Source of the DNA: Thermaurantimonas aggregans | Lineage (GTDB): Bacteria; Bacteroidota; Bacteroidia; Flavobacteriales; Schleiferiaceae | NCBI RefSeq assembly: GCF_003851885.1 | Contig: NZ_BHZE01000008.1 | Location: 1-64,000, forward strand | Direction of reading: 5' to 3' | Length of the DNA stretch: 64,000 bases | Part shown: positions 200 to 44,309 of the stretch, piece by piece | Layout of the letters: each line of letters opens with the position of its first letter | How positions within the stretch are numbered: the first letter of the stretch is position 1 | Notes under the pieces: model-generated | Database searches by the model: none | Told to the model about the DNA's origin: nothing | Seen by the model: the letters and a program-made list of their open reading frames with translations, nothing else | Translations under genes and position numbers: made by a program

Positions 200-1156
200 T
201 TACTTCTTAAAATGTGAAATAATGATTTGCGCCATCTCCTCGCCGATGCGTTCCTGGGCTTCGACGGTAGATGCTCCAATGTGGGGTGTAAGCGATACAG
301 CGGGATGCATCAGCACGCGCATGGCCGGTGTAGGTTCGTTTTTAAATACGTCAAGCCCGGCATAGGCGAGCTTACCGCTGTCTAAGGCTTCGAGCAGCGC
401 TTCCTCATCCACTATCCCACCGCGTGCAGCATTTACGATGGCAGCTTTGTCTTTCATTTTGGCTATTTGCTCGCGTCCTATAATGGGTTTATCAGCCGCC
501 GGCACGTGAAGGCTGACGAAGTCGCTCTGAGCCAACAAACTGTCCATATCCACGATAGGCACTTTGATTGTAACTGACTGTCCGTCGCAGAAGTCCAACT
601 TTATATCAACTGACTCAGTGTAATATGGATCTGAGGCAATCACTTTCATACCTACCCCAAGTGCAAGGCGTGCAAGTGACTGCCCAATGCGGCCAATTCC
701 GATAATGCCCAATGTCTTACCGCGCAATTCACGGCCGTCGGAGTACTTCTTTTTCAACTCGTTAAAGCGGGTTTCTCCTTCGAGGGGCATCAGGCGGTTG
801 CTGTCGTGTAGAAAGCGCACCATGCCATACAGATGCGCCATCACCAGTTCAGCCACTGAGTCGCTCGATGAGGCCGGCGTATTCACCACGGCAATGCCTT
901 TGCTACGGGCATATTCCACATCGATATTGTCCATGCCCACGCCACCGCGGCCGATGAGCTTTAAACCAGGGCAGGCATCGATCAGGTCTTTGCGCACCTT
1001 GGTGGCTGAGCGCACTAGCAAGATTTCGATCTTATTTTCATTGATAAATTTTGGCAATGCCTCTTGGGCCACTTTATTGGTGATTACTTCAAAGCCGGCT
1101 GCTTCGAGCATGCGTATGCCGGCGGGATTCAATCCATCGTTTGCTAATATCTTCAT
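200..1156 (-). CDS. serA: D-3-phosphoglycerate dehydrogenase (short form)
   Basis: Oxidises 3-phosphoglycerate to 3-phosphohydroxypyruvate with NAD, the first step of serine synthesis in the cytoplasm. The 318 residues show the 2-hydroxyacid dehydrogenase family pattern: the Rossmann glycine motif GIIGIGRIG in the middle, the catalytic-Arg motif NAARGGIVDEEAL, and the catalytic His in PHIGAST near the C-terminus. It ends after the catalytic domain, so the regulatory ACT domain of longer SerA types is absent and serine feedback through ACT is not expected. It starts two bases after serC, on the same transcript. The serC neighbour makes SerA a safer call than other hydroxyacid dehydrogenases. 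Confidence 0.93.
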   Translation of the reverse strand: MKILANDGLNPAGIRMLEAAGFEVITNKVAQEALPKFINENKIEILLVRSATKVRKDLIDACPGLKLIGRGGVGMDNIDVEYARSKGIAVVNTPASSSDSVAELVMAHLYGMVRFLHDSNRLMPLEGETRFNELKKKYSDGRELRGKTLGIIGIGRIGQSLARLALGVGMKVIASDPYYTESVDIKLDFCDGQSVTIKVPIVDMDSLLAQSDFVSLHVPAADKPIIGREQIAKMKDKAAIVNAARGGIVDEEALLEALDSGKLAYAGLDVFKNEPTPAMRVLMHPAVSLTPHIGASTVEAQERIGEEMAQIIISHFKK

Positions 1157-1158
1157 AC

Positions 1159-2232
1159 TTATCCTTTTACGCGTTCAAATTCTTTCATTACATCTACGAG
1201 CACTTGTACACTCTCCAGCGGCAGTGCGTTGTACATGCTCGCGCGATAGCCGCCTACGCTGCGATGGCCTCTGATGCCTGAGATACCAGCCTCCTTCCAC
1301 ATCTTGTCAAATTCGGGCTCCAGCTTTGGGTCGTGCAGTAAGAAGCAGGCATTCATCCAGCTGCGGTCTTCCTTAGCCACTGTGCCGTAAAAGAGCGGAT
1401 TACGGTCGATCTCGCCGTACATCAGTTCAGCTTTTTTGCGGTTGAGTTCTTCAATCCAGGCCAAGCCGCCGTTGTTGATCAACCACTCCAAGGTGAGCAT
1501 GCTCACATACACGGCAAACACCGGCGGGGTGTTGTACATGCTGTCTTTGCTGATGTGGGTGCGATAGTCCATCATGGCCGGTATGGCACGACCGGTTTTA
1601 CCGAGGATTTCATCTTTAACCACCACCAGGGTTGTACCCGCAGGCCCCATGTTCTTCTGCGCTCCGGCATAAATGAGCGAAAACTTTGAAAAATCAATCC
1701 GTCGGCTGAAAATGTCAGACGACATATCGCACACCATCGGCACCGGGGAGTCGGGAAATTCCTTCATTTGGGTACCGTAGATAGTGTTGTTTGAGGTGCA
1801 GTGGAAGTAATCGGCATCTTCAGGTATGGTGTAGTCTTTGGGAATAAAGGTGTAGTTCTGTGCTTTTGAGCTGGCGATTACATCCACCTGACCAAAGAGT
1901 TTTGCTTCTTTGATGGCATTCGATGCCCAGGTGCCGGTATCGGTGTAAGCTGCCTTGCCGCCCTCGCGCAGCAGATTCTGCGCCACCATTACAAATTGCA
2001 GACTGGCTCCGCCTTGCAAAAAGAGAACAGAATACCCATCGGGCAGCTGCATCAGCTCTTTTACCAGCTGGCGCGCACGCTCCATTACGGCTTCAAAATT
2101 TTTACTTCGGTGTGAAATTTCGATGAGAGAGAGGTTGAGATTGTCAAAATTCAAAATTGCCTCCGATGCTTTCTGCAGCACCTCCTGGGGTAAAATGCTC
2201 GGACCGGCAGAGAAGTTGTGTACCTTAGCCAT
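1159..2232 (-). CDS. serC: Phosphoserine aminotransferase
   Basis: Converts 3-phosphohydroxypyruvate and glutamate to phosphoserine and 2-oxoglutarate; the family can also act in pyridoxal phosphate synthesis. At 357 residues it has the usual SerC length. The N-terminal NFSAGPSILP motif is typical, and Lys193 in YAGAQKNMGPAG is the expected PLP Schiff-base lysine. HRSVGGYRASMYNALP near the C-terminus is the substrate-binding segment. It is the first gene of a two-gene operon with serA (gap of two bases), so two consecutive steps of serine synthesis are co-transcribed. A phosphoserine phosphatase is not in the window. Confidence 0.95.
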   Translation of the reverse strand: MAKVHNFSAGPSILPQEVLQKASEAILNFDNLNLSLIEISHRSKNFEAVMERARQLVKELMQLPDGYSVLFLQGGASLQFVMVAQNLLREGGKAAYTDTGTWASNAIKEAKLFGQVDVIASSKAQNYTFIPKDYTIPEDADYFHCTSNNTIYGTQMKEFPDSPVPMVCDMSSDIFSRRIDFSKFSLIYAGAQKNMGPAGTTLVVVKDEILGKTGRAIPAMMDYRTHISKDSMYNTPPVFAVYVSMLTLEWLINNGGLAWIEELNRKKAELMYGEIDRNPLFYGTVAKEDRSWMNACFLLHDPKLEPEFDKMWKEAGISGIRGHRSVGGYRASMYNALPLESVQVLVDVMKEFERVKG

Positions 2233-2685
2233 GTTACGTGTGTTTGAATGGGCTGTAAAAGTACTTTAATCTGTCAAACCTGTATTTTGAAATCATTAAT
2301 CTTTTTCTCTTCAGCTGAAAAGTTTTATAACGATAGTACTTTTAACAGCCAATCATAAAAAATTTTCTTTTACATAAAAATTGTTATCAAAAACAACATG
2401 AAAGTGTGAATTTCGGTAGTATTTACAGATATAAAATTCAATACACATTTGCATTATAGACAAATACATGAGTACATTCGTGTTGTTTATAGATCGAATA
2501 AACTTTCGGATAAAAGATTATTTAAGTAGTGAATGATTCTATAAAAAAATTAAATATTAAACATGTTTTCGTGCATTTTTTCGGCAAACTAATTTGAGAT
2601 TTTTTATTCTTTATGTCAAAGTAATTCGTAAAATTGTTTTACTTTTTGTGAAGACTATAAAACATTTGAAATCAGAAAAGTTAAA
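2233..2685. other. AT-rich intergenic region upstream of serC
   Basis: About 450 bases between the serC start and the end of the damaged membrane-protein gene, both on the minus strand. All frames are closed by frequent stops. It must hold the serC promoter, but I see no convincing -33/-7 pair and no clear terminator for the upstream gene. Confidence 0.5.
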
Positions 2686-4230
2686 TCAGATTTTTTGATA
2701 TAGGTTTATATACAAATCATCCACTACATATATAAGTTTGAAACCGGAATCGATCTGGTCTTTTAATTCATTCCAGTCAGGATCATTTAGCCTGTTTGCA
2801 TCACCATAAATCATCACATAATCGATTTGTCATTTATTTTCAGAATCTGGATTATGTTTCCATTCTATACCAGTAATAAAATTCCATTGATGTAAAAATA
2901 AATTTGGCAGGTTTGCATAATTTAAAAGAACCGGAAACCAATTAACTGTTGACTCGTAATTTTCCAATAAAATTAATGGTTTTGTGCATCCAATATAATT
3001 AGAAAAATGAATTTCCATCCAGTGATCCGAAAAGTTGATTGGGAGTACAATACTATTTTCTTCAATATGCTCTGATATGGCGTATAATGTCCTGGCATGC
3101 TTATCAAGCATCCATAAATCTTTATTGTAATGCTTTAGTTGAAGTAATATATGGGTAAACATTGCTATAACTATCAACACGGGATGAATCCAAGTCAATT
3201 TGACGCGCGACACAATCCATAAAAGCAAAAAAATAAAAAGTATCAAGGCGTATCGGTCTGACATCATACCAGCACTTGCTCCATTGGGTGTGAAAATATA
3301 CAAAATAAACGTAATAAACAATGGAATAAGAAATACATCAGATAATTGTATACAAAATGTTTTTTTTACAATATTTTTTTCCAAATCAAATAAGATCATT
3401 ACTATCAAAATGTAAAATATGATTTTAGTAAAAGTTTTTTCAAAATTATAATCAAATACTATTAAAGGTCTTGCATCAAAAATCCATTGAAGCAGTACAG
3501 CAACGGGATATCTCTCATCCGATGGATAAAATTGAACTGTGCTGTAAAACAAAAAAAACATAATCAATGTAGGAAGCGATAACAGAAGTAAAAGATCTAA
3601 CTCTCTAAGTAATAAATGGTATAATGCCTTCAAGGATTGTTTTTTTCGATACGCTTGCAGAGTAAAATAAAAAGTAATCAATCCGCATGTAAGTCCTAAA
3701 AACGCATACATTAATACGTTTGTAAAATACATAAGTGTCAATAAAAAAAATATAAGCCATGATCCTGATTTAGCACCAGATGAATATCGTCGTATTCACA
3801 GTCCTTTTGTGAAAAAAAAGATTATAAAAGATATAGAAAAATTGTAAAATCCTAAATGGAACAAAAATGAGTACATAAAAGGAAATATCATGATGCTTAA
3901 TGCCACACTCTTTGTATTGATCTGCTTGATTAAAAATCGAAATGATAAGGCCATTCCAATAACATAAAGACTAATTAATATTTTTTCTGCTAACCAAGCC
4001 GGCATAATAAAGTGTAAAACTGCCAAAAATGCATGACTTGTCCAGTTTGGAATCCAAAATTTGTTAATCATATAAAATTCACTGAGACTTTCGTTTTCTC
4101 TGAGCAAGTGAGCAATAATGTTGGCATTATACAAATGGGCAGGACCATCCATAGATGGAAAGAATTTTATTGTAAAGAGTAGTACGATATTAAAAACTAA
4201 TATCAAGTAAAAAAATCGTACTTTGTACAA
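2686..4230 (-). pseudogene. Multi-pass membrane protein interrupted by two in-frame TGA codons
   Basis: Read in one frame, 4230-2686 gives about 514 codons with TGA at 3798-3796 and 2832-2830. All three pieces read as one protein. The first (about 144 residues) has transmembrane helices and the motif SMDGPAHLYNA. The second (from just after the first TGA) continues with helices such as GSWLIFFLL. The third is a soluble tail (QIDYVMIYGDANRL onward) ending at TGA 2688-2686. The layout resembles the GT-C/EpsG-like family of polytopic glycosyltransferases in Bacteroidota, but I cannot name the substrate. There is no ATG: the frame opens at a TTG at 4230, and the nearest ATG (4279) is in another frame, so the 5' end may also be damaged. 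TGG codes for Trp within the gene and TGA is a normal stop nearby, so nonsense mutation is likelier than recoding. Confidence 0.7.
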
Positions 4231-4538
4231 TATTGAACAAACCGAATTGAATCTTTTTTATGTATTTTATCTGAATCATCAGAGTGTGATTTTATATAAA
4301 ATAATTTTATGATATTCAATTTAAGAAAAATGAAAAAAATACATATATAAAACTGACCTTTATCAAATAGAAAATATAATTAATGTCATATTATCTATAT
4401 TAACAAAAAGATTTGTTTTACAATCATTGCGAGATTGAAACAATTACTCATTTACATACAGAAGAAATTGTATAAAATCACCTATGTTTCAACTAAAAAA
4501 TTAAGGCTATATATTTGCAATAAATGTATTGATATGCA
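4231..4538. other. AT-rich intergenic region
   Basis: Very AT-rich spacer between two minus-strand genes, with no open frame worth calling. A plus-strand TATATTTGC box near 4508-4520 looks like a -7 promoter element but faces the 3' end of the next gene, so no role is assigned. Confidence 0.4.
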
Positions 4539-5129
4539 TTACTTTTTCCTTTTCCACGACACATCATACAACAAACCAATATTCACAAAATTAGAGCGAT
4601 TGTAGTCGCTTGAATATTCCTCCATAGGTTGATAGACAAAATGAGCACCTACATACCAATTTTTATGCACCGGAACATACAAACCTGCCCATAGGTTGAA
4701 ATAAATTTTTGGGATGGGGTCACAGTAACGATAAAGAATACAAGTGCGATTGTCTTCGTTGATCAATCTATCGTTAAGGACAGGCGATACGGTAAATCCC
4801 TGCACAAAGTGCATACTTGAGAATTTCGCCCTGAGACCAAATCCTACCGGATTTACCAACAAAATATTTCTCAAAGCCGAATTATTGTAGTCAATGAATT
4901 GCCGCATGCCAAAACCTATGGTAGCGAAAGGAATGGCATTGCCTCGTTGAGTCAATTCAAGATTGTACGCCATGAACAGATTTGTGTTGTTCAGGCGGTC
5001 GTTGAGGCTGGTTTGGAGATTGGCCCCGGCTGCAAAGTGCAAAAATCCCTTAACTGTAGCCAGCCCTTGTCCATGCGCTAAGCACCCAAATAAGAAGAAC
5101 ACGGCTTGTAGTAATCTTTTAGAAATCAT
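4539..5129 (-). CDS. Exported protein, probable small outer-membrane beta-barrel
   Basis: I do not recognise the family. The 196-residue product begins with a signal peptide (RLLQAVFFLFGCLAHGQG) and continues with alternating polar and aromatic strands such as PKIYFNLWAGLYVP and WYVGAHFVYQ, which suggests a barrel of about eight strands. It ends in a basic KRKK tail, unusual for a barrel that normally closes with an aromatic residue. Its start overlaps the end of the upstream gene by 11 bases, so the two are translationally coupled and probably work together. Intact, unlike three neighbours. Confidence 0.6.
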   Translation of the reverse strand: MISKRLLQAVFFLFGCLAHGQGLATVKGFLHFAAGANLQTSLNDRLNNTNLFMAYNLELTQRGNAIPFATIGFGMRQFIDYNNSALRNILLVNPVGFGLRAKFSSMHFVQGFTVSPVLNDRLINEDNRTCILYRYCDPIPKIYFNLWAGLYVPVHKNWYVGAHFVYQPMEEYSSDYNRSNFVNIGLLYDVSWKRKK

Positions 5130-28011: not shown

Positions 28012-28122
28012 ATGTCGATGACTCAAAAAAGTGGACAGAATAAATCTATTAAAATTCCATGTAGTGAGATTTCTGACAATAATCATAATAACACTTATGT
28101 TGCTACACATACTTTTACTTAA
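28012..28122 (+). CDS. Candidate 36-residue peptide upstream of the PqqD-like gene
   Basis: A short ORF (starts MSMTQKSGQNKSIKIP, ends NNTYVATHTFT) lies 29 bases before the PqqD-like gene on the same strand. It is too short to be significant by itself in AT-rich DNA. It is listed because PqqD-like domains usually bind a leader peptide, and the precursor gene often comes first in such clusters. The C-terminal half is rich in Asn, Thr and His and contains one Cys in the middle. There is no strong ribosome-binding or promoter signal. It could equally be leader DNA. Confidence 0.3.
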   Translation: MSMTQKSGQNKSIKIPCSEISDNNHNNTYVATHTFT

Positions 28123-28151
28123 AAATTCTGGAACCTTAAAATCCAAATAAA

Positions 28152-28400
28152 ATGATACAGATTCGAAAGAATATTGCTATTAGCGATACAGGATTTTTAT
28201 TCGACCCATTTACAGGTGAATCTTATTCTCTTAATTCTACAGGATTAGAAATTTTACTCATGCTCAAAAACGGATATTCGCTTGAAGAAATCTCTCAAAA
28301 AATAACAGAGAAGTACGATATCGATTCAGAAACTTTTGAAAGATATTTTCAAGATTTTATTTCAACACTTCGCCTGTATCATTTGACAGAAAACGAGTGA
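28152..28400 (+). CDS. PqqD-like protein (RiPP recognition element fold)
   Basis: 82 residues matching the PqqD pattern: an N-terminal beta hairpin (GFLFDPFTGESYSLNSTGLEIL) followed by helices (YSLEEISQKITEKYDIDSETF). Standalone PqqD-type proteins bind leader peptides and present them to modifying enzymes; related ones occur with ATP-grasp and HPr-kinase-like clusters. It is the first clear gene of the cluster; its stop is one base before the ATP-grasp start. The partner peptide is not proven; the 36-residue ORF upstream is one candidate. Confidence 0.75.
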   Translation: MIQIRKNIAISDTGFLFDPFTGESYSLNSTGLEILLMLKNGYSLEEISQKITEKYDIDSETFERYFQDFISTLRLYHLTENE

Positions 28401-28401
28401 A

Positions 28402-29442
28402 ATGAGAAAATTAACTATTGGTCTATCTGGTTTAAACAACATCGATAGCCCAGGGCCTGGTATTCCTGTATTGAGAGGGTTAAGAGAATCTAAGTTATTT
28501 GAAGCCAGAATAGTAGGCATAGCGTACGAAAATCTGGAACCAGGCGCTTACATGCACGATTTAGTAGATAAAACATATAAAGTTCCCTACCCTTCTGATG
28601 GAGTTGAACCCCTGCTCGACAGAATAAAATACATTCAAGAAAGAGAGAAAATCGATGTATTTATTCCAAACTTCGATTCGGAGCTTTTCACCTTCATGAA
28701 ATCCGAAAAAATCTTAAGAGATTTGGGAATAAAAACATTTTTACCTACATTACAACAATTTGAAGAAAGACATAAATCAAATTTACCAGAATTCGGAAAA
28801 AAATATAACGTAAATGTACCCTACAGCGAACCTATTACTTCAATACAAGAATTTTTAAAAATTAAAAATAAATTTGAGTTTCCAGTCGTAGTTAAAGGAA
28901 AATTTTACGACGCCTACATAGCCTATGATTTTGACCAGGTTGCAATGTATTTTAATAAAATAGCAGCTAAATGGGGATTGCCAATTGTTATTCAGGAATT
29001 TATAAAAGGAACAGAGGTAAACGTAGTAGCCTTAGGCGACGGACAGGGAACAACGATAGGTGCTGTACCCATGCGAAAAACCTACATCACCGACAAGGGA
29101 AAGGCTTGGGGTGGAATTACCCTCGACGATCCGGCCATGATGGAACTCACGCACAAAATCATTTCTCAAACGAAATGGAGGGGTGGGATGGAGCTAGAGC
29201 TCATCCGTACTGCCGACAACAAGCTCTATATGATCGAAATAAATCCCAGATTACCAGCATGGGTGTATCTGGCTGTTGCTGCAGGCCAAAATTTACCAGA
29301 AGCTCTTGTTCTTATGGCCCTTGGCGAAAAAGTCAAACCCTTTACCTCATACCAGGTTGGAAAAATGTTTATTCGGTATTCCTTCGATCTGATTACCGAT
29401 TTAAGTGAATTTGAAAAATTAGCCACTACCGGCGAACTCTAA
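28402..29442 (+). CDS. ATP-grasp ligase
   Basis: 346 residues of the carbamoyl-phosphate-synthase-like ATP-grasp type: an N-terminal pre-ATP domain (IGLSGLNNIDSPGPGIPVL), the lysine strand FPVVVKGKFYDAY, the central IVIQEFIKGTEVNVVALGD, and the Mg-binding EINPRLPAW near residue 280. Such enzymes couple a carboxylate to an amine through an acyl phosphate. It sits between the PqqD-like and decarboxylase-like genes, so peptide or amino-acid ligation is likely; the substrate is unknown. The first 600 bases are very AT-rich and the last 400 clearly GC-richer, a mosaic. Confidence 0.85.
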   Translation: MRKLTIGLSGLNNIDSPGPGIPVLRGLRESKLFEARIVGIAYENLEPGAYMHDLVDKTYKVPYPSDGVEPLLDRIKYIQEREKIDVFIPNFDSELFTFMKSEKILRDLGIKTFLPTLQQFEERHKSNLPEFGKKYNVNVPYSEPITSIQEFLKIKNKFEFPVVVKGKFYDAYIAYDFDQVAMYFNKIAAKWGLPIVIQEFIKGTEVNVVALGDGQGTTIGAVPMRKTYITDKGKAWGGITLDDPAMMELTHKIISQTKWRGGMELELIRTADNKLYMIEINPRLPAWVYLAVAAGQNLPEALVLMALGEKVKPFTSYQVGKMFIRYSFDLITDLSEFEKLATTGEL

Positions 29443-29453
29443 AACCCAAACAA

Positions 29454-30830
29454 ATGGAAAAACAAGCCTTTGAAAGACCAATAATTCAAAAACTCAATGC
29501 AGGCTTACCGAGCAAATACGGCCTTGCCAGAAAATTAGAACCCATAAGCCACATCGATGGAGTGGCAATTAGCAGTATCATCAAGCAATATGGATCTCCT
29601 GTTTTTATCTTTTCAGAAAATACCATTCGCCGTACCTATAAAGACGCGTATCGAGCGTTCAGCTCGCGCTATCCTAAAGTACAATTCGCCTGGTCATATA
29701 AGACAAACTATCTGAATGCCATATGTCAAATCTTTCATCAAGAAGGCGCCTGGGCAGAAGTAGTTTCAGGGTTTGAGTACGACAAGGCAATCGCAAATGG
29801 AATTCCCAGCGAACTCATCATCTTCAATGGACCTGACAAAAGCCTTGAAGACCTTCGTAAAGCGATAATAAACGGTTCACTCATTCACATAGATCATTTC
29901 GATGAGCTCTATGATATCATTAAGCTCTCAAAAGAAATGAGCGAAAAGCCTCGAGTAGCGATTCGCGTGAATATGGATGTAGGCATCTATCCCAAATGGG
30001 ACAGATTCGGCTTTAACTACGAAAATGGGGAAGCGTGGGATGCTCTCAACCGTATAATGGCATCAAAAAAACTTGAGCTCGTTGGCCTTCACACACATAT
30101 CGGAACATACATCATGTCAACCGAGGCCTATAAAATAGCCGCCTCTAAACTCGCAAAACTTGCTGTAGATCTTGAGAAAAAATATGGATTAGCCATTCAA
30201 TACATCGATATCGGAGGTGGTTTTGCCTCAAAAAATACTTTGAGAGGCTCCTACTATCCGGGCACAGATACCGCTCCATCGTTTGACGACTTCGCTGAGG
30301 CTATTACCTCAGCGCTTTTGAGCTCTGACATCAAACCTCAAAATTTGCCCTTGCTCATTTTGGAAACAGGCAGAGCACTCATTGACGAAGCAGGGTATTT
30401 AGCTGGAACAGTACTGGCCAACAAGAGATTATCTGACGGCAGACGGGCCACCATTATTGATGCAGGCGTGAATGTGCTCTTTACCGCTTTTTGGTATGAG
30501 CATGACATCCGTCCGGTAGAACCAATTTCTGAACAATCTGAAGACACTACTATTTATGGACCCTTGTGTATGAATATTGACGTGGTACGCTATAATGTGA
30601 TGTTTCCATTGCTCAAAAAAGGAGATCATTATGTAATAAGACGCGTTGGCGCATACAACAATACTCAATGGCTCCAGTTTATCAACATGCGTCCTAATAT
30701 TGTATTAATCGATAAATCTGGAAACTTACATTTAATTCGAAAAAAAGAAACACTGGATACTATTAATTCAATGGAAGTAATACCAGAGCATCTCAAAGAG
30801 AATTATTACCATAATATGGCCACTAAATGA
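29454..30830 (+). CDS. PLP-dependent decarboxylase of the DapDC/ornithine decarboxylase (alanine-racemase) fold
   Basis: 458 residues. The active-site pieces appear intact: Lys83 in AWSYKTNYLN (PLP Schiff base), HTHIGTY near 213, the glycine loop YIDIGGGF near 254, ETGRALIDEAG near 304, and GPLCMNID near 372 with the Cys from the partner subunit. It therefore probably decarboxylates or otherwise acts on a D- or L-diamino acid or a peptide-linked residue. It is not an obvious LysA: the N-terminal extension and the setting (PqqD-like and ATP-grasp upstream, membrane/peptidase fusion downstream) differ. Its stop overlaps the next ATG as ATGA. Confidence 0.8.
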   Translation: MEKQAFERPIIQKLNAGLPSKYGLARKLEPISHIDGVAISSIIKQYGSPVFIFSENTIRRTYKDAYRAFSSRYPKVQFAWSYKTNYLNAICQIFHQEGAWAEVVSGFEYDKAIANGIPSELIIFNGPDKSLEDLRKAIINGSLIHIDHFDELYDIIKLSKEMSEKPRVAIRVNMDVGIYPKWDRFGFNYENGEAWDALNRIMASKKLELVGLHTHIGTYIMSTEAYKIAASKLAKLAVDLEKKYGLAIQYIDIGGGFASKNTLRGSYYPGTDTAPSFDDFAEAITSALLSSDIKPQNLPLLILETGRALIDEAGYLAGTVLANKRLSDGRRATIIDAGVNVLFTAFWYEHDIRPVEPISEQSEDTTIYGPLCMNIDVVRYNVMFPLLKKGDHYVIRRVGAYNNTQWLQFINMRPNIVLIDKSGNLHLIRKKETLDTINSMEVIPEHLKENYYHNMATK

Positions 30831-33007
30831 AACTCATTAAGTGGTTTAGTGCTGCCGTACTAAATAGTTATGCTCAGTTGTTTTTTTCAAACAATAAGTG
30901 GTTTGGACTGATATTGCTGAGCATAACTTTTTTAGATTTTTATGTAGGTATTTTAGGTTTATTTTGTGTACTCACTACACTTGTTTTAGCCTATGTCCTT
31001 GGGATAAATCAATATAGCATAAGTCAAGGATTTTATGGCTTTAATTCACTTCTAGTTGGAATAGGTTTAGCCATCTATTTTAAACCAAGTATATCACTAG
31101 TTATTCTCATTTCCGCTGCTGGGATACTTACTCTATTTATTTCCTTATCATACGAAGGATTTTTAGCTAAGTATGGATTGCCATTTCTCAGCTTACCTTT
31201 TATAACAGTTTTTTGGCTTTTGCGATTATCAACAAGGCAGTTTCAGTCATTAGGTTTTAGCGATAGAGGAATATATGTTTTAAACGAATTGTATTCATTA
31301 GGAGGTAACAAATTAGTAAAAATATATGAATGGATAAACGCTTTTGATATACCCAGTGCGATAAAAGCATATTTATTATCTTTAGGAGCAATATTTTTTC
31401 AACAAAATGTTTTAGCAGGTTTTTTAGCATGCATTGGCCTTTTTCTTTACTCAAGAATTGCCTTTAGCCTTAGCATTATAGGGTTTTTAATTGCATATTT
31501 TTTCTATACGATTTTAGGCATACATTTCAATGAAGTATATTTCAGCTACATTGGTTTTAATTACATACTTACATCTATTGCATTAGGAGGCTTTTTTATC
31601 ATTCCTAATGCAAGTTCCTATATCGCTCAAATCTTTATAATTCCAATTGTCGTTGTAGTAAGTATATCTCTGCAAGAAATTTTCAATTTATTTAATTTAC
31701 CAGTGCATTCACTGCCATTTAATTTAGTTGTACTCACGGTGCTTTATGGACTGAAATTTCGTGAAGACAATAGAATAGGATTAAGTACAATCTTTTGGCA
31801 GCAAAACTCTCCTGAAAAAAACCTGTATTTTTTTAATAACTACACTGAGCGTTTTGGAAACGAATCGAGTTTTCCGATCTACCTCCCTTTTTATGGTGAA
31901 TGGGTCGTAACTCAAGGGCACAATGGAGAGTACACCCACAAAGAGGATTGGAAATATGCCTGGGATTTTGAAATTATAGATGAGGATGGAAGAACTTACA
32001 AAAACAATGGACTTTTTGTAACAGACTACTATTGCTACGAAAAAAATATTTTAGCACCAGCCGATGGAATAATAGAGGATATAATTGATGATATTGAAGA
32101 TAATCCTATAGGAATCAGAAATTTAGAAAATAACTGGGGAAATACAATAATAATTAAACACACCGAATTTCTTTATACTCAAATGAGCCACCTAAAAAAA
32201 GGAAGTATTACATGTTCAAAAGGACAATCTGTAAAAAGGGGTGATATTTTAGGAAAAGTAGGCAACTCCGGAAATTCACCTTATCCCCATCTTCACTTTC
32301 AAATTCAGTCAGCACCTTATGTAGGTTCTAAAACGATCAACTATCCACTGTCTTACGTTTATTTAAAAAATCAAAAAAAAGGAAAATTATTTCAAGTTAT
32401 TATACCTGAAAAAGGAGATAAAATATCGTACTTAACTCCAAATTTAATTTTAAAAAAATCATTTCATTTTATTGTAGGTGAACAATTGACTTTTAAGGAT
32501 GAATCCGGAAGAGATGTCTTATGGACTGTAAAGAGAGACTATTACACTCTCGTAAAATACATAGAATGTGAAAAAAGCAATTCGAAAGCATATTTTCGTT
32601 TAGATGATAATATGTTGCAATTTACGCATTTCGAAGGAGATAAAAAATCAATGCTGTATTACTTTTATTTAGCTTCATATAAGGTCAGTTTTGGTTTCAC
32701 GAATAGATTAGAATTAAGCGATAAAATTCCAGTCAATATGGTTTTTAAGCCATATTCACTTTTAATACACGACTTTTTTGCACCTTTTATTCCTTTTTTA
32801 CATTGCATTTACCATCTTTCATACCCAGATGTAAATACAGGATTAATAAGTAAGCCGATTAAATTAAAAAGCTCTATTGTCAAAACATTTTTTGGAAAAA
32901 AAGTTGATTCCATTGAATTTGAATTAGAAGAAGATCAAAGTGGAATTAAATATTTAAAAGTACATAATAAAAGATCTAAAAACGAAAAATGGGTAGTAAA
33001 AAGTTAA
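30827..33007 (+). CDS. Urea-transporter-like membrane domain fused to an M23 metallopeptidase domain
   Basis: 726 residues. About 1-310 form a polytopic domain that resembles urea transporters (SYAQLFFSNNKWFGLIL and GFYGFNSLLVGIGLAIYF are family hallmarks). About 365-500 form an M23 (LytM-like) peptidase: His in YTHKEDWKYAWDF, APADGIIEDI, then HLHFQ near 486, so zinc ligands look present. A further 220 residues are unrecognised. Urea or a similar small amide and peptidoglycan-type bonds are family substrates; which side of the membrane the peptidase faces is unknown. It overlaps the previous stop (ATGA) and the next gene start by 19 bases. Confidence 0.75.
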   Translation: MKLIKWFSAAVLNSYAQLFFSNNKWFGLILLSITFLDFYVGILGLFCVLTTLVLAYVLGINQYSISQGFYGFNSLLVGIGLAIYFKPSISLVILISAAGILTLFISLSYEGFLAKYGLPFLSLPFITVFWLLRLSTRQFQSLGFSDRGIYVLNELYSLGGNKLVKIYEWINAFDIPSAIKAYLLSLGAIFFQQNVLAGFLACIGLFLYSRIAFSLSIIGFLIAYFFYTILGIHFNEVYFSYIGFNYILTSIALGGFFIIPNASSYIAQIFIIPIVVVVSISLQEIFNLFNLPVHSLPFNLVVLTVLYGLKFREDNRIGLSTIFWQQNSPEKNLYFFNNYTERFGNESSFPIYLPFYGEWVVTQGHNGEYTHKEDWKYAWDFEIIDEDGRTYKNNGLFVTDYYCYEKNILAPADGIIEDIIDDIEDNPIGIRNLENNWGNTIIIKHTEFLYTQMSHLKKGSITCSKGQSVKRGDILGKVGNSGNSPYPHLHFQIQSAPYVGSKTINYPLSYVYLKNQKKGKLFQVIIPEKGDKISYLTPNLILKKSFHFIVGEQLTFKDESGRDVLWTVKRDYYTLVKYIECEKSNSKAYFRLDDNMLQFTHFEGDKKSMLYYFYLASYKVSFGFTNRLELSDKIPVNMVFKPYSLLIHDFFAPFIPFLHCIYHLSYPDVNTGLISKPIKLKSSIVKTFFGKKVDSIEFELEEDQSGIKYLKVHNKRSKNEKWVVKS

Positions 33008-34341
33008 TTTTTATTTTTATTCTGACGTTTTTTTTTAAGTATGGTCAATCACAAATAACCTTTAACATTAAAGAGATTGATAGAGTTACATATGAACTTT
33101 ATACTCAAAAAAATTGGAATTCTCTTATTGATATTGGAAAGGAATCTCTGAGAAAAAATATTTCCTTTTACTACTTACATGTACGGATGGGTATAGCATA
33201 CTTCAATAAAAATAATTTTCACAAAGCTATTTATCACTTCGATCAGGCTTTGAAAATATCAGATGAAGAAGAATATGTAAAAGAATATCTGTATTGGTCT
33301 TACCTATACTCAGGTAGATCTTCTGAAGCTGAATGGTTTTCAAAAAAATTGTCGAAAACATTTAAAGAAAACTATGAATTAAATGATGAAATAGCTATTA
33401 AAAACATTGATATTGCATACAATTTTACTCAAGGAAACTCAATTGAAAAAATCACTCATTCCATCAATAAAATTCAAAATAACCTAAATGGTTATTTATT
33501 TAGTCCTTTACAAATTGAGTCTTTTTACATTGGTTTATTGACTAAATTGACCTCTCGACTACGTATCTATCAGGCATATACTAATTTAAATTCAAACCAA
33601 TTTCTTTATTTTCAAGCATCTAATCAAAACTACTCAAACGCAAATTTTAATACCAGGCTAAATCAATACTACATAAATACCAACATTTTAGTATCTAAAT
33701 CTGTGTCCTTAACTGGGGGAATTCACTTTGTTCATTCAAGTGCGAAGTATACTACTCAGCTTACTGTAGATTCTAATGAAATACCTCTTTTACTGGAAGT
33801 TCCAACACATTCAAACGTCTTAGACATTATTGGTTTTATTTCATTTTACAAAAAATTTACTTACTTTACTTTTGGAACTTCTTACTACAAAGCTGGATTG
33901 AATAACGCCAAACAAGAACAAATTGATTTTAAATTACATATTTTTCCTTTCGGAAATTTAAATTTATACATAGTAAGCAATTTTTCAGTTCAGCAACAAG
34001 ATTATGGCTTATCAACAATAAGGAAAAATTTGATTATTGACGAAAATATAGGTTTTAAAATTTCAAATAACTTTTGGGCAGAGATTTATGGATCTGTAGG
34101 CGATATGAGTAATTTTATAGTAAAGGAAGGAATGGTAATTTACAACCGGTCTGATGTAATAAATAATAGATTAGGAGCTAAACTTATTTTTGTACCTAAT
34201 CCAAAGTGGTCGCTCACCATTGATTACACACGTTTGTCATGTACAAGCAACTTTATCGAATATCCCCAACAGAGAGAGACCAACGATAAATTTACTTATT
34301 TACATCATTCGATCACTGGAATTTTATCAATAAAACTATAA
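32989..34341 (+). CDS. TPR plus outer-membrane beta-barrel protein
   Basis: 450 residues with a signal peptide (KKLIFIFILTFFFKYGQSQ). The first 150 residues are TPR-like (MGIAYFNKNNFHKAIYHFDQALKI), and the rest is barrel-like strands (SVSLTGGIHFVHSSAKY, FTYFTFGTSYYKAGL), ending ILSIKL. This layout recalls YaiO-type and T9SS-associated TPR/porin proteins and suggests an outer-membrane exit or receptor. Start overlaps the upstream gene by 19 bases, so it belongs to the cluster. Confidence 0.7.
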   Translation: MGSKKLIFIFILTFFFKYGQSQITFNIKEIDRVTYELYTQKNWNSLIDIGKESLRKNISFYYLHVRMGIAYFNKNNFHKAIYHFDQALKISDEEEYVKEYLYWSYLYSGRSSEAEWFSKKLSKTFKENYELNDEIAIKNIDIAYNFTQGNSIEKITHSINKIQNNLNGYLFSPLQIESFYIGLLTKLTSRLRIYQAYTNLNSNQFLYFQASNQNYSNANFNTRLNQYYINTNILVSKSVSLTGGIHFVHSSAKYTTQLTVDSNEIPLLLEVPTHSNVLDIIGFISFYKKFTYFTFGTSYYKAGLNNAKQEQIDFKLHIFPFGNLNLYIVSNFSVQQQDYGLSTIRKNLIIDENIGFKISNNFWAEIYGSVGDMSNFIVKEGMVIYNRSDVINNRLGAKLIFVPNPKWSLTIDYTRLSCTSNFIEYPQQRETNDKFTYLHHSITGILSIKL

Positions 34342-34351
34342 TATTTTAACT

Positions 34352-34975
34352 ATGAAAAAAGTAAATTTCCCTCTTCCTTTTACAACTGTAATCCTATTTT
34401 TTTCAATCATTTTTCCTTTAAATGGACAGGATCAAGTTATAAATGTTTTTAAAAAGAGCTATGAATACGAAAATAATGGTAATTATAAAGCGGCTATTGA
34501 ACAATTAAATTCAGTATATGAAACAGAAAGTTATGAAATAAATCTCCGATTAGGTTGGCTGTATTATCAAAACGGAAATTTTAAAGAATCCATTGACTAC
34601 TACCAAAAAGCAATAAACCTCAAACCTTATGCGATTGAGCCGAAATTAGGGGTAGTTCTTCCCTACTCTTCGATGGGAAAATGGGAGGCAGTATTAGAAA
34701 TTTATCAAAAAATTTTAGATATTGATCCAAATAATTCACTTGTGAATTATCGGGTCGGTTTACTTTACTATAATAAAGGCAATTTTAATCAAGCAGAACG
34801 TTACATCGAAAAGGTTGTAAATCTATATCCATTTGATTACGATAGCTTGTTATTATTAGGTTGGATTAAATTAAAACTTCAAAAAAACAGAGAAGCAAAA
34901 GTTTTATTCCAAAAAGCACTTATGAATAGGCCTGGAGATGAATCGGCTTTAGAGGGCTTAAAGTACATTAAATGA
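34352..34975 (+). CDS. Exported tetratricopeptide-repeat protein
   Basis: 207 residues: a signal peptide (LPFTTVILFFSIIFPLNGQ) followed by about five TPR units with the usual pattern (LGWLYYQNGNFKESIDYYQKAINLKP and YRVGLLYYNKGNFNQAERYI). It probably acts in the periplasm as a scaffold for the TPR-barrel protein before it, ten bases upstream. Last gene of the cluster; no strong hairpin terminator is seen in the 99 bases after it. Confidence 0.8.
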   Translation: MKKVNFPLPFTTVILFFSIIFPLNGQDQVINVFKKSYEYENNGNYKAAIEQLNSVYETESYEINLRLGWLYYQNGNFKESIDYYQKAINLKPYAIEPKLGVVLPYSSMGKWEAVLEIYQKILDIDPNNSLVNYRVGLLYYNKGNFNQAERYIEKVVNLYPFDYDSLLLLGWIKLKLQKNREAKVLFQKALMNRPGDESALEGLKYIK

Positions 34976-38646: not shown

Positions 38647-41600
38647 TTATTTCTGTGAAGTAACTATGAGCTTTCTCACATATTCAGCTCCATCGACATT
38701 AGCTCTTACGATGTAGGTGCCATCTCTTAATGAGTTCAAATTGAGAGGCACATCTGCTCTACCTGCGTAATAGTAGTCGCCGAAGCTCATTATCATCTGA
38801 CCAGCAAGATTGAAAACACTTACTGAAACATTACCCGACTTCGGCAGATAAATGGGCAGGTGTGCCAACTTATTAGCTGGATTAGGATAGAGCTCGCCAA
38901 CTACAGGCACGTCGAGCACTTTTTCCTCAATTCCAATAAAGAATTCAGGTTTTTTATTGGATACTTTCAAGCAGAAGTCATCTATTGCCCAGCCAGGTGC
39001 AGTTACATTCTGATCACTGCCAAAGCGGAATCTGAAGATGGCTTTACCGGAGAATTGGAATCTAAAAGTTGCCTTTGCTTCAATCCAGCCGTTTGAATTA
39101 CCCGTAAATCCAGGTTTGATAAGCTCTAAGCCTGTAATGTAGGGCTGATTGTACCAAGAGGATTGAGGTTTGAAATCACCTACTACCTTCCAGGTATTTC
39201 CACCGTCTTGAGAAACCTCAACAGTACCTCCGTCGTGAAACTTCTCTGTCACGAAATAGTGCATGAAGCTCATTTCATATGCCAGAGTTGAATCTACAAT
39301 AAACACTGGTGTGAAAAGTGCAGAGCTATCGCGGTTTCGATAGTTTTGTGACAAACTGGTTATCCATGCTTTTGTGCCAGAGTGGGCACCTACGATGGGT
39401 GGATTGTTGGGTGTTCCAAATTCCCATATAGTAGTACCATTTCCGTAGGTGAAGGCATTGTATGTAGCCCAGGAAGGTTCATTTGGACCTTCGAAGTTGT
39501 TACAGAATGAAGAATCGGGAGCTTGGGCTATGTTGAGTTCTTGCAGTACTACAATGGTTTTGCAGAACTCATCGTCAGAGGTTAGGTTGTCTTGTTTTCC
39601 GTTAGGCAGTCTTGTCTCTGCACAAATGTTATGAGGTCCAGAGGTTGGATTTACCCAGGGCGATTGGTAGGTGTAATCGAAGGTTTGATTTACTTCAAGA
39701 CCATTTCCCGGGAAAATTACCTTTTCCCAAGGGCCAACTGTTGTTCCAATTTTCACACGTACTTCACAACTATCGAGTCTCTTAGCACCTGTGTTTTGAA
39801 TGGTTACAACGAATTGGTTGTTAATTCCCGGAACGATCAGAGGAGTAATTGTATTCACGTTGATAGGTGCAGCACTATTTTGCGGTGGTACGTAAATCTG
39901 GAAATTATCAATTGCCCAACCAGAACCTGTACCAGCTGCATTAGAGCGGAAGCGGAAGCGAAGGTTCAACGGCGCTATATTAAAGTTAAACATGTTGAGC
40001 GGGAAGGCACTGTTCATCCATCCTCCCGAGTTACCTGTAAAAGCAGGTTTGTTTCCGAAGAGTGCTGAGCTCGACGTACCAAAGTTTGGTGAAGTACAGT
40101 ACCAGTTAACACCTAGATTTTGATTACATCCGCCAGAGGGAAGCTCACCGAGAACCTGCCAGCCCTGGGGTGTTTCATATTCTACAACTCCACCGTCGTC
40201 GTCGCTAAATTGGAAATTTTGAGCAAATCGAATTTCCGGGAAGCGTATTGTATCAAACCCAGTAAAAGATGGGAATCTCAAAATTTCTTCTGCATTATTT
40301 CGATATGGACGATTCGTTGAAGTCACCCAAGCGTTAGGAGCCGACTGTGCACTAGTGATGGCTGTTTTAGAAGGAGTACCCAACTCCCACTGGCGAAGCC
40401 CCCCTTGAGAGAAGATACCGTTTGATGACCAGTTGCAGTCGTCGAAATTTGTAAAGTAAGGCACTGAAATGCTTCCGAATCCGGTTACATCCTTACAGTA
40501 TTCATTATTAAAAGTATTCACATCACCCGTTAAGTTGGTCGAAGCACAGATTTTGAACCTACCAGTTGGCCAAACCGGTGAGGTAGTAGGTGTAAACTGT
40601 ACCGTCTGATTTGGTGCTAAGTTACCTGTCCATGTCGCATTGTAAGTAACGGGTGTACCCGCTCCTGTACCACAGTAAGGAGTAATGGTGTATGTTACAG
40701 GTATAGAAGTGAGTGTCTGCGTACCAAAATTTCGGATCGTAAATGTTGGCAACTGACCTGTACCTGATGGCACACCTAAACCTGGTGGTTGAATGTTTTC
40801 AATACCAGCATCGTTAGCTATTTTGTTGTAAACATTGAGATTATCAATAGCCACAAGAGTAGCTGAACCACTGTTTTTACGGTGTGCTTGTATTTGAATT
40901 CGAGCAAATTTGTTTGCAAAAGCTTGTAAGCTAAATTCTCTGTAAATCCAGTTGGAAACGTGATTAGTATGTGAATTAGCTCCTGTGTTTACAATTCTAC
41001 CTCCAGCTGGTGTAATCCAGTTATTTCCACCGTCTTCGAGGAAACGGACAACCAATGAATCAACATCAGGGGCAAACATGTAGTAGTAAAAAGATACTAC
41101 CGGATTGCTTATTCCGGTGAAATTCAAACACAGCGACTGAAGAGTGGCGGGGGAATTGAACTGCCAGTTTCCGCGGGCAAATAAATAGTTGCCATAATTT
41201 GAAAAGTCAGAAATCGGACCGGTACCTTCAATAGGATGGGGTAAACCTGTACCTACACCCCAAGCATATTGGCTAAACGATGTTCCAGTTGGATTTGGAA
41301 TTCTCTCCCATACGGTCGTAGCTAAGGCACCGTAGTTGCCTGGTACTTGGAAGTTTCCGGGAGTATTTCCAGTGCCGTCAAAAGTCAAAGACAATGGGAA
41401 GGTGCTGTGGTTAGACGGGTGTAATATCTGGATGTCAAGAGTATCATTGGTTTTATCTACATCACCAGGTACGTTGGTCCACACTTTTATATTATATGTA
41501 GTATTTGGTGTGGAAAGGTTAGCCTTTGGTGCCAATGTGTAAACGATTTGTTGAGCTGTAATAAGATTTTGTTTAATCGTATCCCAAACAATAGGACCAT

Positions 41601-43494
41601 TGTTGATTTGGAAAGCGATGGGAATTTGCTTTAGTGTATCACAACCGAGAGATTGTACTCTCACTTGAATATCTTCATTAGCTGTGTACCCACAGAAACC
41701 ATTGACTGGCTTTAGAATTTCCATCAAACGCGCATCATCCGTAGTAGGATTGTAAATACGTAAATTGTCAATAGCAATATCCGATAATATACCCGGACCG
41801 CGAGTGGCAACAAAACGAAATTTCACAAACTTACCTGTGTAGGGTTTAATGTTAACTACAGCTCGAGTATATGGAGCTGATTTAGAGGCATGTTGTTGCC
41901 CTGTTACAGTAAATATTCCGTTTATCCAGTTAGATGTAGATCCTGAACTAGTGTCTATATCCACTCGTAAAGAGCCTATATTTTGACCAAACATGTGATA
42001 ATAGAATTCCAGTGCTGTACATGAGTCCATAGGCAACTGGATACAAGGAGTTTCGAGAATGGTTTGTTGACCGGTTGTTCCTCTTTCACCCCAAGCATAA
42101 ACATACCTCGAGCCATTTTGTGAACCTGATGGACCTGTACCTGGGTTTGGTGTGGCTTGATTGCCACCCATTATGGCCCATGCATAGTTGTTGGGCAATT
42201 GGTTGTTCGGCGGATTGACCGACCAATTTTGCCCAACTGCCGTCGGGAAGGTACCTCGATACGTGGTACCCGTACCTCCCACAGTACCAGGTACCCAATC
42301 GGCACTTTCAAAACTTTCAATCCAGGGGTTGGTGGCCGATGGATAAATGATATTTGGATTCACCGGGTTGCCTGGTTGCCAACCAGGAATGCACTTACCC
42401 GGAGGAGGTGGCATGATCCAGAAAGTGTAAAAGCCTACTGGAGCATTTGAGGGCATCCGAACCTCGTTCTTACAAGTGTCCTTACCTATTATATAGTAGT
42501 CAACTGTATCGCCGACATTCAAATTATAAATGGTATCTCTGAAAATACGATTAGTAACGGGCTGACCTGTTTGTGGTACCATAAATTTCAAAGTCCATGG
42601 ACCTTTATTAATTCTGTAAAACAGTAAAGCTGAGTCAGCCCTTACGTTGTCTTGAATGCGAATTCCAATGGGATAGTTTCCAGGAGCAAATTGCCCAGCT
42701 AAAGGATGATTGTTGTAAGGCGGAGATACACCGAGAGAAAATGTTGCTGTTGGATTATATAATTCGCAGGAAGAAACTTCAACTTTTATATCATCAATAA
42801 ACCAACCTGCTTTAAGTGCCCGGTTGGGATTACCATCGTTTCCGAATGGAAAAGCACAAACAAAGCGCAACTTAACTTGCGGAAATCCCGTAGTACCACA
42901 GGCAAGAGCTGAGATATCAAAAACTTCTTCAACCCACCAGTTATTGGTCGGAAAAGTATTGCCTGAAGGACCGTCCCAAATATTCGTGCTATTGTTAATA
43001 TTGATTCCGTTGTATGAGAGATCATTGAAGTAGCCCAAGGATCTGTACGACAAGCTCTGACCCAGGTAAATTACATTACCTGGAACAGGTGGCGATGCAT
43101 TTGGATCGTTAGGGACGAAGGTGGTCCATGTAGCCCCATTGTTTGTGGAAATTTGAATAAGTGCCCTATCAACGAAGAGAATTTTTGCTATGTGTTTGAA
43201 TGTCAATCGAGCAAAAGTATTTCCAACAGTAGAAAAAGCATTGGTTTCAAAAAATATAGTATCTTGTGAACCGGCAACAGGCTTGGCCGTGTAAGAATTT
43301 GGACTTGAAACCTGTAGTTGGTTGTTTGTATTGAAAAGAAATAAAGGTCCAGCTGTACCTGTACCTGCTCCTTTATATGTAGTGCCTTTTATAGTTGCAC
43401 TATCAAAGTTCTCAAAATAAACGGTATTGATGACAGGCTGGGAATGAACGGATAACGTCAGAAGAAATATGCTACTTAGTATGTGTTTTTTCAT
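38647..43494 (-). CDS. Large multidomain surface protein secreted by type IX system
   Basis: 1615 residues: a signal peptide (KKHILSSIFLLTLSVHSQ), then at least five similar jelly-roll/MAM-like modules whose ends read GWFIDDIKVEV (about 229), IAIDNLRIY (567), VAIDNLNVY (879), GWAIDNFQIY (1191) and GWAIDDFCLKV (1500). Between them are CARDB-like spacers (for example NFGTQTLTSIPVTYTITP). The C-terminus is a type A T9SS sorting domain (GELYPNPANKLAHLPIYL to YVRKLIVTSQK). No enzyme motif is seen; an adhesin or glycan-binding role is likely. The start at 43494 puts the signal peptide first; the ATG at 43533 adds 13 residues without support. Confidence 0.85.
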   Translation of the reverse strand: MKKHILSSIFLLTLSVHSQPVINTVYFENFDSATIKGTTYKGAGTGTAGPLFLFNTNNQLQVSSPNSYTAKPVAGSQDTIFFETNAFSTVGNTFARLTFKHIAKILFVDRALIQISTNNGATWTTFVPNDPNASPPVPGNVIYLGQSLSYRSLGYFNDLSYNGININNSTNIWDGPSGNTFPTNNWWVEEVFDISALACGTTGFPQVKLRFVCAFPFGNDGNPNRALKAGWFIDDIKVEVSSCELYNPTATFSLGVSPPYNNHPLAGQFAPGNYPIGIRIQDNVRADSALLFYRINKGPWTLKFMVPQTGQPVTNRIFRDTIYNLNVGDTVDYYIIGKDTCKNEVRMPSNAPVGFYTFWIMPPPPGKCIPGWQPGNPVNPNIIYPSATNPWIESFESADWVPGTVGGTGTTYRGTFPTAVGQNWSVNPPNNQLPNNYAWAIMGGNQATPNPGTGPSGSQNGSRYVYAWGERGTTGQQTILETPCIQLPMDSCTALEFYYHMFGQNIGSLRVDIDTSSGSTSNWINGIFTVTGQQHASKSAPYTRAVVNIKPYTGKFVKFRFVATRGPGILSDIAIDNLRIYNPTTDDARLMEILKPVNGFCGYTANEDIQVRVQSLGCDTLKQIPIAFQINNGPIVWDTIKQNLITAQQIVYTLAPKANLSTPNTTYNIKVWTNVPGDVDKTNDTLDIQILHPSNHSTFPLSLTFDGTGNTPGNFQVPGNYGALATTVWERIPNPTGTSFSQYAWGVGTGLPHPIEGTGPISDFSNYGNYLFARGNWQFNSPATLQSLCLNFTGISNPVVSFYYYMFAPDVDSLVVRFLEDGGNNWITPAGGRIVNTGANSHTNHVSNWIYREFSLQAFANKFARIQIQAHRKNSGSATLVAIDNLNVYNKIANDAGIENIQPPGLGVPSGTGQLPTFTIRNFGTQTLTSIPVTYTITPYCGTGAGTPVTYNATWTGNLAPNQTVQFTPTTSPVWPTGRFKICASTNLTGDVNTFNNEYCKDVTGFGSISVPYFTNFDDCNWSSNGIFSQGGLRQWELGTPSKTAITSAQSAPNAWVTSTNRPYRNNAEEILRFPSFTGFDTIRFPEIRFAQNFQFSDDDGGVVEYETPQGWQVLGELPSGGCNQNLGVNWYCTSPNFGTSSSALFGNKPAFTGNSGGWMNSAFPLNMFNFNIAPLNLRFRFRSNAAGTGSGWAIDNFQIYVPPQNSAAPINVNTITPLIVPGINNQFVVTIQNTGAKRLDSCEVRVKIGTTVGPWEKVIFPGNGLEVNQTFDYTYQSPWVNPTSGPHNICAETRLPNGKQDNLTSDDEFCKTIVVLQELNIAQAPDSSFCNNFEGPNEPSWATYNAFTYGNGTTIWEFGTPNNPPIVGAHSGTKAWITSLSQNYRNRDSSALFTPVFIVDSTLAYEMSFMHYFVTEKFHDGGTVEVSQDGGNTWKVVGDFKPQSSWYNQPYITGLELIKPGFTGNSNGWIEAKATFRFQFSGKAIFRFRFGSDQNVTAPGWAIDDFCLKVSNKKPEFFIGIEEKVLDVPVVGELYPNPANKLAHLPIYLPKSGNVSVSVFNLAGQMIMSFGDYYYAGRADVPLNLNSLRDGTYIVRANVDGAEYVRKLIVTSQK

Positions 43495-44309
43495 TTGCAG
43501 TGTTATACTTTTCCGAGAAACAAATATACACATTTACAAGAAAGTTAAAATATTTTGAAAGTGTGCACGAAAAAACAAAACCAAAACAACATTTAAAGTA
43601 GGGTTCTAACTGTTTAAAGAGTTTTTAAACAAAAGATTCACCAAGATCCCCTCTACTTCAGCGCGTATCATTACCTGTACCCATTTATTCTAGTCGTGTT
43701 TGACCATATCAATAAATCTTTAGAAGACAGAATAACCTAAAGATTCCTAATTCAGGAATAGAAGAATAACCAATAGATCGTAAGTCAGTAGAGTCAATTT
43801 TAAGTCTAGGATAGAATTAGAGAAAATCGCCTCGGATGTTTTTTTAAAACACCTTATCTTCTAAAAAATCCACTATTTGATATTTTATCCGAATAACACT
43901 TCCTGTCAAAGAAAATCTTTAAACATTGAATACGACAGTAGTTTAGCCTTTGAAGGATTATAGAAAGCCTTTTACTCTGAAAATTTTATTATTTGGAAAA
44001 AAAGACTGTAAAGCCACAAATTTTTAATAATTTGAATGAAAAAATTTTTAAGTATCGAAAATTATAGTAAAAAACATTCAAAAAGTATAAGATTTTTCTT
44101 AATAAAAACAACTTTTAGAAAATACTAATCGATGCCAGCCTATCGATAGCAAGAATCTATTACCTGAAAATGAGCAAGTCATTTATAAAAATATTTCTAC
44201 AAAATAAAAATATTTAGTAAATTGATTTTTAAAAGTTTAAATTTAATTTATCCCATTAATATTTAAAATATAATTTTATTAAACTGATTTTTTACAAACG
44301 CAACTTTTA

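Follow-up and report, generated by a model that had tools for sequence, protein, structure and literature searches.

A conserved six-gene operon with a urea transporter-fold/M23 peptidase fusion and its possible role in making and releasing an acylated diamine

Related systems and the conserved operon

Several described systems combine some of the functions encoded by the operon analysed here. The PqqD fold is a defining accessory fold of RiPP pathways, and PQQ biosynthesis has a cytosolic zinc protease. The PQQ, mycofactocin and pearlin pathways each pair a PqqD-type protein with a zinc protease and with ligase or modifying enzymes, as does the operon. Carboxylates are linked to side-chain or biogenic amines by PylC and MfnD, which belong to the same superfamily as its ATP-grasp enzyme. 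Ordinary urea transporters (UTs) are passive import channels, with urease driving the entry of urea through them, and their two termini lie on one side of the membrane, which in known UTs is the cytoplasmic side. The TPR-barrel exporters PgaA and BcsC unite periplasmic TPR with an outer-membrane barrel, and in peptidase-containing ABC transporters (PCATs) a cytosolic peptidase is fused to an export protein. In the PEARL pathways small molecules are built on the C-terminus of a peptide, according to two reports (PMC9303977, PMC11117183).

The window, by which we mean the whole 64,000-nucleotide stretch of Thermaurantimonas aggregans DNA that was analysed, contains the six genes listed in Table 1. 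A first-pass annotation had described them as a tightly packed plus-strand unit, and every ORF was recovered at the same coordinates and on the same strand, with spacings between successive genes of +1, +11, -4 (ATGA), -19 and +10 bases and no terminator-like site above chance level inside the unit. Profile searches upheld the family calls (PqqD, ATP-grasp, Orn/DAP/Arg decarboxylase, UT with Peptidase_M23, and TPR), and the call of an outer-membrane barrel was borne out by a structure model with a mean pLDDT of 87, whose Foldseek matches were barrels of the outer membrane. The start of the cluster at 28012 did not hold, since the 36-codon ORF at that position (28012-28122) shows no conservation and is probably not a gene. 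A gene for a large secreted protein (1628 aa, 38647-43533), with a C-terminal region resembling a type IX sorting domain, lies near the operon in the window, yet has no conserved association with it.

Table 1. Positions of the six genes in the window and of the C-terminal domain of the fusion protein.
Feature	Position	Strand	Support
PqqD-like (RRE fold) protein, 82 aa	28152..28400	+	Pfam PqqD, E=7.7e-11, above gathering score
ATP-grasp ligase, PRK12767 (CPSase-like) type, 346 aa	28402..29442	+	Profile matches
Fold-III PLP decarboxylase, closest to N-citrylornithine decarboxylase FslC/FigC	29454..30830	+	Orn/DAP/Arg decarboxylase, both domains
UT-M23 fusion: UT-fold domain aa ~1-310, M23 aa ~350-500	30827..33007	+	UT 1.3e-62; Peptidase_M23 1.7e-15
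C-terminal domain of UT-M23, beta-rich, poorly conserved	aa ~505-726 of the 30827..33007 product	+	
Secreted TPR/barrel protein: TPR aa 27-128, ~12-stranded outer-membrane beta-barrel aa ~168-450	32989..34341	+	Structure model
Periplasmic TPR protein with N-terminal signal sequence, 207 aa	34352..34975	+	Pfam TPR; homologue alignment

A common gene order of PqqD, ATP-grasp, PLP decarboxylase, UT-M23, outer-membrane barrel and TPR was found across Bacteroidota, Ignavibacteria and Chlorobi. Scanning 84,980 species genomes for UT-M23 with exact peptide patterns taken from one protein returned 28 loci, which belong to these three groups as far as the record labels show; the profile searches covered one phylum only. 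The 28 scan loci and 33 loci from whole genomes displayed the same order with few further conserved neighbours. PqqD was present in 57 loci, which are all the loci where an unbroken contig covers the operon's upstream half, and because the order is kept in about 57 independent loci a chance neighbourhood is excluded. Among 396 sampled genomes the UT-M23 fusion occurred in 34, from ~16 families; an ATP-grasp orthologue (E<1e-140) was present in exactly these 34, and a TPR orthologue in 32 of them. Identical sets for ATP-grasp and UT-M23 would arise with a chance of ~1e-49 if the genes were independent, a figure made too extreme by the relatedness of the genomes. Pairwise homologue distances of the six proteins are correlated (r=0.88-0.97), as is expected under joint inheritance, and vertical descent alone would give the same. 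Stand-alone UTs of the same phylum (~300 aa) lie outside the cluster and without these neighbours. Co-occurrence across genomes had been suggested as a check on the proposal that the six genes form one unit; the conserved order and the identical 34-genome sets support that proposal, and the sequence comparisons show one functional unit scattered among Bacteroidota-type bacteria.

Two main subtypes of the operon were distinguished. In the Bacteroidia type the TPR/barrel gene precedes the TPR gene, and in the Ignavibacteria type a TPR-less barrel gene, whose product is homologous to the TPR/barrel protein (hhalign 95.9%, E 5e-9), comes after the TPR gene. Many Ignavibacteria-type operons have a gene for a secreted FG-GAP-repeat protein directly upstream of PqqD (L074:5218-6057, with equivalents in L075, L077, L079, L081, L083, L085, L086 and L089; L067:5926-7911). 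Most of these proteins carry a type IX secretion C-terminal signal, and they may represent an extra secreted partner.

A small number of loci depart from the common plan. The two most divergent operons, L067 (genome G256) and L068 (G228), are without the TPR gene, and in L067 the UT-M23 protein is also without its C-terminal domain; neither element is thus essential to the core. At L059:7944-10198 (G005) UT and M23 are split over two overlapping frames, most likely through a one-base frameshift in the linker, and the TPR gene lies ~7.5 kb further on. Where UT-M23 lacks the upstream genes (L041, L043, L053, L055 and L056), the loci are contig ends or separated pieces: the genomes of L053 and L056 carry the ATP-grasp gene on a different contig, and no ATP-grasp gene was found in the MAGs of L041, L043 and L055. 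The separation of UT-M23, barrel and TPR from the ATP-grasp gene in L056 (G396) is an inversion or an assembly break. Contig C1 of G124 has the operon at both ends (998-4956 and 3732415-3736372) with identical ATP-grasp scores, and is probably circular, its two ends overlapping. An apparent fusion of the PLP and UT-M23 genes in L057 was rejected, as the join has no UT start and looks like a deletion or an assembly error.

The decarboxylase, the ligase and the precursor search

The active-site motifs of the PLP enzyme had been described as intact, and the alignment agrees: the catalytic residues K83, H213, G254-256, E304, R307, C372 and D376 are invariant across the family. The specificity loop reads GPLCMNID and the best PDB match is 7KH2, an N-citrylornithine decarboxylase, the specificity residues of which were taken from PMC7857480 and mapped via alignment to 7KH2. 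M355, T327, Y331 and Y383 are kept (as M373, T344, Y348 and Y401 respectively), whereas H357, R387 and T330 have changed to I375, Q405 and W347; M373, Y348, I375, Q405 and W347 vary little or not at all among the decarboxylases of the operon. The operon enzyme therefore shares with FslC/FigC of the rhizoferrin pathway fold III, the catalytic residues, a Met beside the catalytic Cys and, in the specificity helix, the Thr and the Tyr, but I375 and Q405 stand in place of the citrate-binding His and Arg, and the operon is without an NIS synthetase. Where related enzymes have an acid to bind a free amine on the side chain, FigC (M355) and the operon enzyme (M373) both have Met. This replacement, with that of the citrate-binding Arg and His by Gln and Ile, suggests that the substrate is a neutral N-acyl diamino acid whose side-chain amine is blocked, with neither a citryl group nor a free amine. 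Identity with FslC was rejected, as the NCBIfam score is 232 bits against a cut-off of 500 and the citrate-binding residues are replaced. LysA was likewise rejected (226 bits against a cut-off of 298; CMNID rather than CE(S)xD in the loop), and because the genome has another LysA elsewhere, which at 375 bits is over the same curated cut-off, the operon decarboxylase is not the enzyme of lysine synthesis.

K165, E279 and N281 of the ATP-grasp enzyme are invariant in the family alignment, as are many putative substrate-pocket residues. Its similarity to PylC and MfnD is weak (24.5 and 20.9 bits, far under the cut-offs). Plasmid homologues of the PLP and ATP-grasp proteins were set aside as functional clues, being merely distant general LysA and ATP-grasp proteins. 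A precursor peptide was sought at all loci among ORFs of 20-100 aa on both strands, over ~1 kb upstream and 0.8 kb downstream. No conserved candidate was found near the operon in this search, the recurring ORFs being only fragments of neighbouring genes, and in some loci the upstream space is merely ~100-180 bp. The operon has the RRE/PqqD domain of a RiPP cluster; because the precursor gene is missing near it, it does not count as a RiPP cluster strictly speaking. A graspetide cluster was rejected since the ATP-grasp enzyme is PRK12767-like and no precursor lies near the operon. The lack of a precursor gene nearby also sets the operon apart from the PQQ, mycofactocin and pearlin pathways, as does the absence of radical SAM and PEARL enzymes.

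The channel–peptidase fusion and the envelope proteins

The structure model of UT-M23 (pLDDT 88.7) matched dvUT and UT-B in Foldseek (best match 3k3g, 1.1e-15), then LytM domains, and the UT domain matched PF03253, the signature of urea transporters, at 1.3e-62. The fusion resembles dvUT and UT-B in fold, in this signature and in an N/C-in charge pattern; it differs from them in the attached M23 domain and in the replacement of the E/Q of the C-terminal half and of the pore threonines, and it scores 134 against a cut-off of 275 for NCBIfam urea_trans_yut. Canonical UTs keep the pore Q and T of the first half (8/8 alignable) and the E/Q and T of the second (9/9), whereas in the fusions the E/Q position is A, S, L, M, F, Y or I (30/30) and the pore T is mostly S, A or V (n=30), so that the conserved ladder of Gln, Glu/Gln and Thr is not found. 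As these polar urea-pore residues are replaced, the pore is less polar and probably not selective for urea. The transporter-like reading in the first-pass annotation thus stands for the UT fold and PF03253, and its plain form needs correction for the pore.

The membrane-crossing pattern was obtained from the helices of the model and the known inverted repeat, with the sides assigned by the positive-inside rule. Positive charge lies on the N/C-terminal side in 30/30 fusions (K+R 8.4 versus 2.2) and in 9/9 canonical UTs (11.7 versus 1.6), and the internal loops alone gave the same sign in 30/30 fusions. No further TM segment of typical hydrophobicity was found in the window protein between the UT domain and M23. 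The charge pattern supports a cytoplasmic location of both ends of UT-M23 in all 30 homologues and, with no further TM segment after the UT domain, leads to the prediction that M23 is cytosolic, away from the cell wall.

The zinc and catalytic residues of M23 (H371, D380, H455, H488 and H490) are invariant in 30/30 fusions. The domain thus has the zinc ligands and catalytic His of M23 peptidases, together with the LytM fold (as in DipM) and the His/Asp/HxH residues of LytM-type enzymes, from which it differs in being channel-fused and predicted cytosolic and in an H-to-D spacing of 9, not 4. To our knowledge M23 peptidases are otherwise extracytoplasmic wall enzymes, and this counts against the predicted placement. 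A role as cell-wall hydrolase is not supported, as the computational prediction is N/C-in for 30/30 homologues, and the suggestion in the first-pass annotation that the cluster might remodel the cell wall is disfavoured by the same positive-inside assignment of M23 to the cytoplasm. Haloarchaea, Thermus and Thermomicrobium have the nearest separate relatives, all of them membrane-anchored (L095:2518-3594, L096:2638-3597, L097:2686-3612 and L098:2653-3696), which suggests an M23 subfamily free of cell-wall ties; the LPFxGxW and A(x)DF motifs of the fusion recur in the proteins of all three groups. There are also archaeal M23 proteins that are secreted and used as weapons against bacteria (PMC12352652), and the archaeal homologues were rejected as proof of a cytosolic role, for which they are suggestive at most. 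We also note that in the relatives from all three groups a positively charged stretch follows the last TM segment, ahead of M23, and that in Thermomicrobium there is an overlap with the gene of an MFS transporter. For the C-terminal domain of UT-M23 no match was obtained in Pfam or among the best 50 Foldseek matches.

The TPR/barrel protein matched FadL/OmpG-type barrels in Foldseek, and the 207-aa TPR protein has a C-terminus alike in length and sequence across homologues. Compared with PgaA and BcsC, the barrel is far smaller and the operon is without a polysaccharide synthase.

Competing readings and a proposed function

We tentatively propose, at somewhat less than an even chance, that the operon directs the cytoplasmic synthesis of a small amide-containing amine and its release via a dedicated UT/TPR/barrel conduit. 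PqqD would hold the acyl donor, a peptide or another compound, for the ATP-grasp enzyme. The latter would form an amide between a carboxylate and a diamino acid (ornithine or lysine, for example) at the side-chain amine, a step suggested by the kinship with PylC and MfnD and by the decarboxylation proposed to follow. The PLP enzyme, with its FigC-like pocket, would decarboxylate the N-acyl diamino acid to an acylated diamine. M23, placed by the charge rule at the cytoplasmic entrance to the UT-fold channel, would trim or release the product; the channel, its polar urea-binding residues replaced, would pass it to the periplasm, and the periplasmic TPR protein and TPR/barrel would carry it across the outer membrane. 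The sequences show the unit, the intact active sites, the altered pocket and pore, the charge pattern and the secreted nature of the barrel and TPR proteins; we infer the part played by PqqD, the order of the steps, the substrates, the direction of flow and the product. This model, in which an acylated diamine is made and released, is the most economical, and the family content fits the earlier suggestion that the parts are suited to make and export an amide- or amino-acid-derived product. Counting against it, no precursor or other substrate was identified, the UT and barrel are passive and import is possible, and the two divergent members do without the TPR gene and, in L067, the UT-M23 C-terminal domain. 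A new class of export machine, in which a repurposed UT-fold channel with a cytosolic M23 at its inner mouth releases an undescribed acylated diamine made by PqqD, ATP-grasp and decarboxylase, is a more doubtful proposition. PCATs resemble this layout by analogy only, there being no homology, an M23 rather than a C39 peptidase and a passive UT fold rather than an ABC ATPase.

The chief rival to synthesis and release is uptake with metabolic trapping, which is allowed because both pores are passive: the barrel, TPR and UT-fold channel would import a small amide or short amidated peptide, to be cleaved by M23 and trapped or used by the ATP-grasp and PLP enzymes. Import is what ordinary UTs do, a cytosolic peptidase at the inner mouth would suit the breakdown of an incoming compound, and the operon encodes no active exporter. 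An ATP-consuming ligase with a PqqD-type chaperone is, however, typical of synthesis and not catabolism, and neither a TonB-type receptor nor an ABC importer nor any additional gene for catabolism accompanies the operon, so that we regard uptake as unlikely. Another explanation is that a PQQ- or pearlin-like pathway works on a scaffold peptide whose gene is unlinked or too variable, the ATP-grasp enzyme extending the C-terminus and M23 releasing the residue. The PqqD fold, the parallel of a cytosolic zinc protease in PQQ biosynthesis and the PEARL pathways would all agree with this, but there is no conserved small ORF within the distances searched, the upstream space is very short in some loci, and RiPP enzymes, radical SAM and PEARL among them, are missing from the operon; this too seems improbable to us.

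Attachment of an amine to peptidoglycan or to some component of the outer membrane, while M23 acts on the wall, would draw on the usual role of M23 as a wall hydrolase, on the envelope location of the TPR and barrel proteins and on the fact that some bacteria attach diamines to peptidoglycan. Against this envelope modification stand the cytosolic prediction for M23 (30/30) and the membrane-anchored M23 proteins with the same motifs in haloarchaea, which are without peptidoglycan, other archaeal M23 proteins being secreted weapons (PMC12352652), and we consider it quite improbable. Ordinary urea uptake beside polyamine metabolism, the genes being chance neighbours, is what the Pfam names would imply; given the perfect co-occurrence, the kept gene order, the loss of the UT pore residues and the position of same-phylum stand-alone UTs outside the cluster, there is very little to recommend it.

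Nothing relevant to the six-gene combination was found in the open literature that was searched, in keeping with the earlier remark that no assigned function was known for it. No PADLOC match to anti-phage defence was obtained at E<=0.001, and none of the known systems considered passed the membership tests applied for a characterised pathway. Each part falls within a known superfamily, and the novelty lies in the system as assembled, which fits no known pathway considered. If synthesis and release is correct, many environmental Bacteroidota, Ignavibacteria and Chlorobi would make a previously undescribed metabolite. The UT fold, which we know so far only for urea-like solutes, would gain a new substrate and possibly a role in export, and an M23 peptidase would be at work in the cytoplasm. 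Cultured hosts such as Cyclobacterium and Algoriphagus make each step directly testable.
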